Made by a program: the position numbers and the translations under genes. DNA of 39,431 nucleotides from Syntrophomonadaceae bacterium (GTDB lineage: Bacteria > Bacillota > Dethiobacteria > DTU022), in contig PWYU01000027.1 in the NCBI GenBank assembly GCA_003567725.1, positions 1 to 39,431 of the forward strand, in the 5' to 3' direction. Under the pieces are notes generated by a model, which was given only the letters and a program-made list of their open reading frames with translations, was not told where the DNA came from and made no database searches. Within the stretch, counting starts at the first letter, position 1; every line of letters starts with the position of its first letter. Shown here in pieces: positions 4,275 through 38,397 of the stretch.

Positions 4275-4537
4275 ATATTTCAATAGGTATGGCTATGAAA
4301 GAGTTAAGTAAGCCAGGGGTTATGGCGCCGTTCAGGGAGGACCGGCCGCGACTGTAAGCCAGTTCCGGTGTGCCCGGCCGAAATTCACTCTTGAGCTTTC
4401 CACTGAAGGGTTCTTAAGGGCCTTGTAGGTAGATTACGGATAATTCCGTTATCAATTATAAAGTGAGCTAGGCGGTAGCTAAATCGGGTGGTACCGCGGA
4501 AGATAATCTTTCGTCCCTCTTAGAGAGGGATTTTTTC
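4275..4537 (+). promoter_or_regulatory. T-box riboswitch, Phe specifier, controlling pheST
   Basis: The leader carries the conserved T-box core GGGTGGTACCGCGG at 4486-4499, followed by a terminator. Stem I closes by pairing AGAGT (about 4299-4303) with ACTCT. Its specifier loop has AAGTA on the 5' side and GAAATTC on the 3' side, so the codon immediately before the closing helix is TTC at 4384-4386, i.e. phenylalanine. Uncharged tRNA-Phe would pair with TTC and with the TGGT of the antiterminator bulge, allowing read-through into pheS. This fits the genes downstream. Stem boundaries are read by eye. Confidence 0.93.
4514..4536 (+). terminator. T-box intrinsic terminator before pheS
   Basis: TCCCTCT (4514-4520) and AGAGGGA (4524-4530) form a perfect 7 bp stem with a 3-base loop, followed by six T. 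Formation of the antiterminator with the upstream T-box core would exclude it. Confidence 0.9.
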
Positions 4538-36589: not shown

Positions 36590-36618
36590 TTGACGCAGGT
36601 ACCCCCCTGTTGTATAAT
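36590..36618 (+). promoter_or_regulatory. Sigma-A type promoter of the aroA-like gene
   Basis: TTGACG (36590-36595), 17 bases, TATAAT (36613-36618), with an extra TG just before the -10. Transcription would start near 36625 at the beginning of the T-box leader. Confidence 0.88.
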
Positions 36619-36624
36619 TAACTC

Positions 36625-37004
36625 TAATTAAATAGCAAAAAAAGCTAAGATAGAGGAAAGTAAACTGGCCAGGAATTCTTAAGAGACATCGGGTCCAGGG
36701 CTGAAAGCCCGGTGGTTTAACAGCCAGGAGAAGTTCCCTCTGGAGCAGCAGGCTGAAAAACCGGCTTACCCTGTCGGCCAGTAGGCTATGACGGAGGCTT
36801 CCTCCGTTACAAGGAAGAAGGTATATGGCACGCAGTTGCAAGGCTTGCCAGGATTAATATAAGCTGGCTATAGTGCCTTCATGGCGCTGAATAGCCTTAG
36901 TAACATAACGGCCCGTACCTTAATGGAGAGGGGTACATACAGTACTCAACCGGGGTGGTACCGCGTAAAGCCAAAGCTTTCGTCCCTATGGACGGAAGCT
37001 TTTT
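36625..37004 (+). promoter_or_regulatory. Large T-box riboswitch, Phe specifier, upstream of the aroA-like gene
   Basis: The T-box core GGGTGGTACCGCG is at 36953-36965. Stem I closes with AGAGG (36652-36656) and CCTCT (36737-36741). The next helix is CTGGC/GCCAG. The specifier loop between them has AAAGTAAA on the 5' side and GAGAAGTTC on the 3' side, so the codon is TTC at 36734-36736, as in the pheS leader. The leader is about 380 bases, against about 260 for pheS. The extra length lies between stem I and the antiterminator, where several further hairpins can be drawn. Confidence 0.9.
36973..37004 (+). terminator. T-box intrinsic terminator before the aroA-like gene
   Basis: AAAGCTTTCGTCC (36973-36985) pairs with GGACGGAAGCTTT starting at 36990 across a 4-base loop with one mismatch. 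The stem runs into a T tract ending at 37004. Confidence 0.9.
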
Positions 37005-37107: not shown

Positions 37108-38397
37108 ATGGAAATCAAGATTAAACCGGTTCAGAAATTTGCAGGTGAGCTAAAAGCACCAGGCGACAAGTCAATTTCACACCGGGCTCTTATTTATGCC
37201 TCTCTTACTGAAGATAAGGTTGAAGTTGAAAGCCTAATGCAGACCCGTGATATTAAGGCTACCCTTGAGTGTTTAAGCCAGCTTGGTGTTGATTTTGTAG
37301 AATCTGAGGATAAAGTGATAATTTACGGAAAAGGGTTGCGCGGGTTCAAGGAACCAAAGAATGTACTGGATGTTGGTAACTCTGAAATAGCTGCCAGCCT
37401 CTTAACCGGTTTGTTAGCGGGGCAACCTTTTTTTTCAACCATTACTGGCAGCCCTTCACTGCAAACACATCATATGAAAAACATCACAAAACCTTTACAG
37501 GATATGGGAGCTACTATTAAAGGCAGAAGTGAAAATGATTTATTGCCTCTATCGATCCGCGGATATGACTTAATGCCTCTGAAGTATGATTTGCCTGTCA
37601 GCAGCGCCCAGGTTAAATCAGCCCTTCTAACAGCAGCTCTTTTCAGCAGGGGTAAATCTGAATTAACCGATTTGTTTTGCACCAGGGATCACACAGAAAG
37701 AATGCTGCGCTTTCTTGGAGCAGACATAAATAAACCAGGTGAACGGCATATTGTTCTTAACAGCCCTTCTAAATTAAAAGGTGAAAAGCTGGTAATTCCC
37801 GGTGATATATCTTCTTCCATTTACTTTATTCTTGCTGCTGCCCTGGCTCCGGAAGGAGAATTAAAGCTCAACGCTGTTGGCATAAACCCCTCCAGAACCG
37901 GAGTGCTGGATACATTAAAATTGATGGGGGCAAATATCACTATTCAAAATGAAAAAGAATATAATAATGAACCGGTGGCTGATCTGCTGATTAAAGGCGG
38001 TGAAAAATTAAAGGGAGTAAAGCTGAAAGAAGATGCCATTAACAGTATTATTGATGATATTCCGGCAGTAATAGTGGCAGCGCTTTATGCAGATGGTGAT
38101 ACAGTTATCAAAACCGGTACCGATTTAAGGCCTAAAAAAGGTGAACGGCTGGATATTATAATTAATGAACTCAGAAAAAAAGGCGCTTCGATAAAAGATG
38201 CACCGGATGGTTTAATAATCAATGGTAATACAAAACTATCCGGAGAGGAATGTAACAGCAGTGGCGATTACCGGATTGCTATGGCGCTAAGTGTCGCATC
38301 GCTTTATGCGGAAACAGAGACTATAATCAAAGAAGCGGAAGCGGTTGATAACTCCGTACCCGGTTTCTACGATATGCTGAAAAAGTTAGCCACTTAA
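37108..38397 (+). CDS. aroA: Divergent EPSP synthase (AroA) homologue
   Basis: The family enzyme joins PEP and shikimate-3-phosphate in aromatic amino-acid synthesis. Fold and length (429 residues) are complete: PGDKSISHRAL (18-28), VSSAQVKSALL (164-174), PGDISSSIYF (231-240) and INPSRTG (259-265). Several substrate-site residues differ from the family: GNSGT..R reads GNSEIAAS (90-97), GDxSLxxRPM reads GSPSLQTHHM (114-123), KExDR reads KKGER (343-347), and GDHR reads GDYR (386-389). Retained are Lys21, Ser22, Arg26, Gln168, Asp316/317, Arg347 and Arg389. Catalysis of the normal reaction is therefore uncertain; a changed substrate or lost activity is possible. The Phe T-box supports a role linked to aromatic amino acids. 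ATG 37108 follows a GAAAGGGTG/GAAGG stretch. Confidence 0.85.
   Translation: MEIKIKPVQKFAGELKAPGDKSISHRALIYASLTEDKVEVESLMQTRDIKATLECLSQLGVDFVESEDKVIIYGKGLRGFKEPKNVLDVGNSEIAASLLTGLLAGQPFFSTITGSPSLQTHHMKNITKPLQDMGATIKGRSENDLLPLSIRGYDLMPLKYDLPVSSAQVKSALLTAALFSRGKSELTDLFCTRDHTERMLRFLGADINKPGERHIVLNSPSKLKGEKLVIPGDISSSIYFILAAALAPEGELKLNAVGINPSRTGVLDTLKLMGANITIQNEKEYNNEPVADLLIKGGEKLKGVKLKEDAINSIIDDIPAVIVAALYADGDTVIKTGTDLRPKKGERLDIIINELRKKGASIKDAPDGLIINGNTKLSGEECNSSGDYRIAMALSVASLYAETETIIKEAEAVDNSVPGFYDMLKKLAT

Follow-up and report, generated by a model that had tools for sequence, protein, structure and literature searches.

An EPSP synthase paralogue with a replaced PEP site behind a phenylalanine T-box in a Syntrophomonadaceae genome: a candidate binding or regulatory protein

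The stretch of DNA analyzed here (the window: contig PWYU01000027.1 of a Syntrophomonadaceae bacterium, 39,431 nucleotides) carries a lone gene for a protein that keeps the fold of EPSP synthase (EPSPS) but not its PEP site. We give a probability of about 0.5 to the reading that this is an EPSPS-derived protein without enolpyruvyl transfer, which binds shikimate-3-phosphate (S3P) or something similar and serves aromatic amino acid supply through binding or regulation. Sequence analysis establishes the paralogy, the fixed residues, the fold, the selection on the gene, the T-box and its specifier. According to our proposal, the gene would descend from a second aroA that arose in its order. The part of the site for PEP binding and acid/base chemistry would have given way to other residues, now fixed, and a functional EPSP synthase would no longer be made, while the fold and the S3P half-site would have been retained through purifying selection. 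The gene would be transcribed alone behind a T-box leader reading uncharged tRNA-Phe, so that the protein would be made when phenylalanine is short, together with the aroF-pheA operon. We infer that it binds its ligand without enolpyruvyl transfer; the role in amino acid supply is a guess.

A preliminary description of this DNA had reported an intact reading frame with all the fold blocks of EPSP synthase, and both points held: the ORF is full length (Table 1), and its structure model matches EPSP synthases over its entire length. Against the aroA equivalog TIGR01356 it scores 340.5 bits, passing the 287.25 cut-off, and it also matches Pfam EPSP_synthase, but with 87.5 bits it stays below the MurA equivalog cut-off of 392.7. 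Standard annotation by TIGR01356 would label it AroA. The AF2 model has a confident EPSPS fold (pLDDT 93.6), and its best PDB match is 3rmt (Z 55.6, 422 residues, rmsd 1.5). In an alignment of 83 rows, with E. coli K-12 AroA as the reference, every residue change previously described proved to be real and its numbering exact: window positions 93, 94, 97, 121, 344 and 388 correspond to E. coli 96, 97, 100, 124, 341 and 385, and read E, I, S, H, K and Y vs the canonical G, T, R, R, E and H. Counting only positions at least 95% conserved in 65 canonical AroA sequences, we identified further replacements at P125 (H, window 122), R128 (N, 125), D118 (S, 115), A246 (S, 237) and E314 (D, 317). Over the 83 positions conserved to that degree, the window clade is changed at 8 of 19 active-site vs 6 of 64 other positions (Fisher p = 0.0024).

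The replacements fall on the PEP side of the site. Where canonical enzymes carry the NSGTxxR and RPM motifs with G96 and R124, the window protein and its five orthologues read GNSEIAAS (GHSEIAAS in one) and HHM, and the general acid/base Glu341 has become Lys344 in the window clade, or Ile in one orthologue. The S3P-binding residues (E. coli K22, S23, R27, S169, Q171, D313 and K340) are all kept in the six orthologues, as are, in 6/6, the S3P and closure residues K21, S22, R26, S166, A167, Q168, R193, D316, K343, R347 and R389, where R347 and R389 are the equivalents of the E. coli arginines R344 and R386. Loss of K411, a residue sometimes listed as a PEP ligand, was dropped as evidence; it is not conserved in the type II AroA of this group. 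The catalytic residues of EPSPS are Lys22, Asp313 and Glu341 (PMC12256929); K22 and R124 bind PEP, and G96A alone raises the Km for PEP 23-fold (PMC3411725). Because the G96, R124 and Glu341 positions are not kept, these enzyme data strongly argue that EPSPS activity has been lost in the window protein.

Table 1. Features of the altered aroA-like gene and its leader (window positions)
Feature	Position	Strand	Remark
Promoter-like TTGACG-17-TATAAT, 11/12, just upstream of leader	36590..36618	+	consensus match only
T-box leader RNA before the gene	36638..36990	+	RF00230, 86 bits, E 3e-19
Specifier codon UUC (Phe), context GAA-G-UUC-C	36734..36736	+	Rfam alignment
T-box sequence GGGTGGTACCGCG, tRNA acceptor-end binding, antiterminator	36953..36965	+	12-base core: 0 expected by chance
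Intrinsic terminator of the leader, 13-bp stem and U run	36973..37002	+	
EPSP-synthase-fold paralogue, 429 aa	37108..38397	+	PEP half-site rebuilt, S3P half-site kept
Codons Glu93-Ile94-Ala95-Ala96-Ser97 = E. coli Gly96-Thr97-Ala98-Met99-Arg100	37384..37398	+	
Codons His121-His122 = E. coli Arg124-Pro125	37468..37473	+	
Lys344 codon = E. coli Glu341, general acid/base (PMC12256929)	38137..38139	+	
Tyr388 codon = E. coli His385	38269..38271	+	

The second, canonical aroA that had been suggested as a check is present in the genome, adjoining hisD (L001; motifs GNSGTTARL, KRPM, LRVKESDR and GDHR). The genome also encodes a MurA (L002), and the window protein is a paralogue, one of three EPSPS-family proteins there. 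Another genome of the set (G001) has six PF00275 matches, among them a canonical and an altered AroA; the remaining four are three full-length matches (two on C26, one on C22) and a fragment on C60. Orthologues of the window gene occur in five other genomes of the genus, with pairwise identities within the six of 72-93%, and a comparison of these close homologues found the replacements fixed: E93, I94, S97, H121, H122 and Y388 are invariant in 6/6, and K344 gives way to Ile in a single genome. L010 of G006, a seventh and likewise altered copy, forms the sister of these six. Taken alone, the constancy of the seven core replacements lies within the general conservation of the clade (P = 0.18), which counts against our proposal. 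Because the five orthologues share the replacements, sequencing error was ruled out, and so was contamination; four of the six genomes also share the neighborhood from rplS to a TIGR00725 gene. The window gene is a single transcription unit, and none of its neighbors points to a new pathway.

Selection was gauged by clade-wise codon omegas. The window clade has an omega of 0.106 over a tree length of 3.8, with a long stem branch (0.34-0.38) and a slow crown. For canonical AroA, omega is 0.104 within the genus and 0.133 in the parent lineage. As its omega equals that of the working enzyme of the genus, the window copy does not appear to be decaying, and the doubt that the preliminary description cast on simple decay was justified. 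Judged by these values, the fold and the S3P half-site of the clade are kept by purifying selection.

The gene had also been called well regulated, and a promoter-like site, a T-box leader and a terminator do precede it. Promoter-like consensus matches in the region numbered 5, vs 3.9 expected by chance. The leader matches the full RF00230 model (1-219), including stem I, specifier loop, antiterminator and T-box sequence, yet its score lies slightly below the Rfam gathering score of 93 bits; related leaders exceed that score (98.8 bits for L005, 107 bits for L010). A second T-box leader in the window, at 4286-4521 before pheST, has a Phe specifier in the context GAA-A-UUC-A and provided an internal control for the specifier register. 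The T-box of the aroF-pheA operon in the same genome (G000:C58, L091) has a specifier context identical to that of the window gene, and every window-clade copy with a sufficiently complete leader carries UUC as its specifier. From this codon, the leader is predicted to respond to uncharged tRNA-Phe, and phenylalanine starvation would induce the gene. The idea that a Phe-poor composition suits the protein to such starvation was ruled out, as it is not depleted in Phe. Lone aroA copies of relatives have T-boxes with Phe (UUC) or Tyr (UAC) specifiers, and in G006 and G053 the two occur in tandem. Such tandem leaders, UUC followed by UAC, stand before altered aroA genes at L056:3805-4370 and L022:941-1456, a possible two-amino-acid gate.

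In a search of 98 genomes of the class with the window protein (E <= 1e-118; G097, at 47% identity, was not read in detail), the window type was confined to this genus and a second altered set to the sister family (f5). The window clade nests inside an aroA lineage that is canonical in f5, where the gene stands either in an aroF-tyrA-aroA-aroC-aroB operon or alone behind a T-box. The second altered set consists of L020, L022, L025 and L034, behind T-boxes, and L038, with no T-box detected. Placing all altered copies in one clade was rejected (AU p = 0.0105), so they have at least two origins. In the second set, 14 of 19 active-site vs 5 of 64 other positions are changed (p = 3.6e-8), the S3P residues are also gone, the altered residues differ between genomes, and omega is 0.167. 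S3P binding is thus not a shared theme of the altered copies, which speaks against our proposal. Gly96 has been replaced by Glu, Asp or Asn in 12/12 altered copies of the lineage, and all altered copies tested but one exceed the aroA cut-off. In G050, the operon aroA is cut to a 48-aa C-terminal remnant between tyrA and aroC (L044/L186, G050:C11), and the lone T-box copy, L012, keeps the canonical residues and is probably the working EPSPS of this genome; lone T-box copies can therefore be working enzymes. On G050:C141, two cobalamin riboswitches flank the lone T-box aroA (L063:62-247 and 4326-4507). An otherwise canonical operon AroA of G053 (L035:2922-4235) has Ala at the Gly96 position (NSATTAR), which in other EPSPS is associated with insensitivity to glyphosate.

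In two genomes of the same genus, G003 (96% complete) and G006 (95% complete), no match to aroC, aroB or pheA was found. The his-operon contig of G003 matches G000 and G001 in gene order except that aroC-aroB is gone between an ogt-like gene and secD. Over L182 (G003:C117:1-12000) the his-sec-recJ-relA order is conserved, aroC and aroB are cleanly missing, and an altered AroA ORF heads the his operon. In both genomes, the his-operon AroA (L043 and L047) still has an open frame, its active site altered and its omega about 0.2, and G006 also retains L010 behind tandem Phe/Tyr T-boxes. The persistence of altered AroA in these genomes without the pathway genes suggests a role beyond EPSP synthesis, although the his-operon copies may be in relaxed decay. 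G004 likewise yielded no aroB or aroC match in a genome only 71% complete, and G057 was not used as a case of pathway loss; it is 88% complete, and the entire aro operon may lie on a contig that the assembly lacks. A broader and rather doubtful extension would be that the EPSPS of this order had a further, non-catalytic function linked to Phe/Tyr supply. For its sake, at least three lineages (the window genus, the sister family, and G003/G006 with their his-operon AroA) would have kept the protein once its active site was lost, and two species even once aroB, aroC and pheA were lost as well.

The preliminary description left a choice between a paralogue that acts on a new substrate and an EPSP synthase that is unusual by nature. 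Paralogy stands, given the canonical L001, the fixed substitutions and the low omega; the new substrate is one of two possibilities, the other being a pseudoenzyme for binding or regulation, which fits no worse. A new enzyme would bind S3P or a close analogue, and its second pocket (Glu93, His121, His122, Lys344 and Tyr388) would catalyze some other reaction that uses a different co-substrate, or else a hydrolysis. This is possible, if somewhat unlikely: the S3P half-site is complete in all six genomes and the pocket beside it was rebuilt with acid/base-capable residues that became fixed, a long stem precedes a slow crown under low omega, and the genomes in which the pathway was seen (G000, G001, G002 and G011) all keep the S3P half-site. 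The retained half-site and the fixed His, Glu, Lys and Tyr could in fact equally serve a new reaction, a point that weakens our own proposal. Nevertheless, nothing around this single transcription unit hints at a new pathway, residue 344 varies (Lys in five genomes, Ile in the sixth), and the altered sister copy of G006 persists without aroB, aroC and pheA. Of the two, we rate binding or regulation as slightly more probable than catalysis of a new reaction.

A naturally unusual yet working EPSP synthase, for example one resistant to a PEP analogue, is highly improbable. The aroA equivalog cut-off is exceeded, the equivalents of K22, D313, R344 and R386 are kept, and some glyphosate-tolerant enzymes that work carry changes of the T97I type (PMC3411725), but Gly96 to Glu, Arg124 to His and Glu341 to Lys (Ile in one orthologue) occur here together, single Gly96 changes already impair PEP binding (PMC3411725), and the genome has a canonical AroA. 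Slow decay of a redundant duplicate that has yet to acquire a stop codon is in our judgment improbable and, for the window copy, strongly disfavored. Altered copies do mostly occur beside another, canonical aroA, and those of the sister family vary by genome under a somewhat raised omega; in the window clade, however, omega stays low over the whole tree, no stop or frameshift occurs in six genomes, the T-box specifier is kept, and the replacements are fixed rather than drifting.

The protein that we favor as a binding or regulatory derivative resembles the type II AroA of Bacillus halodurans (3rmt), Streptococcus pneumoniae (1rf4) and Coxiella (3slh) in its whole fold (Z 53-56, 37-42% identity), its S3P half-site and its length. 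It differs from them by G96E, T97I, R100S, R124H, P125H, E341K and H385Y and, unlike these reference enzymes, comes from a genome with another, canonical AroA. With MurA, the UDP-GlcNAc enolpyruvyl transferase, it has the superfamily fold in common (Z about 38), but it scores far below the cut-off (87 of 393 bits), and MurA is encoded separately. The aroF-pheA operon, which has the same specifier context, encodes ordinary pathway enzymes, DAHP synthase and prephenate dehydratase, unlike the window gene. The lone sister-family copies L012, L013 and L016 belong to the same aroA lineage and are likewise single genes behind a Phe or Tyr T-box, but their active site is intact (only E341K in L013).

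EPSP synthase is the textbook single-function enzyme and the target of glyphosate. In a partial literature search we found no described EPSPS paralogue kept by selection without its catalytic residues. If our reading is confirmed, databases wrongly annotate such proteins as AroA, and a pathway predicted for an auxotroph like G003 or G006 includes a step that is absent. The retained protein would then give direct access to other capabilities of the EPSPS fold.
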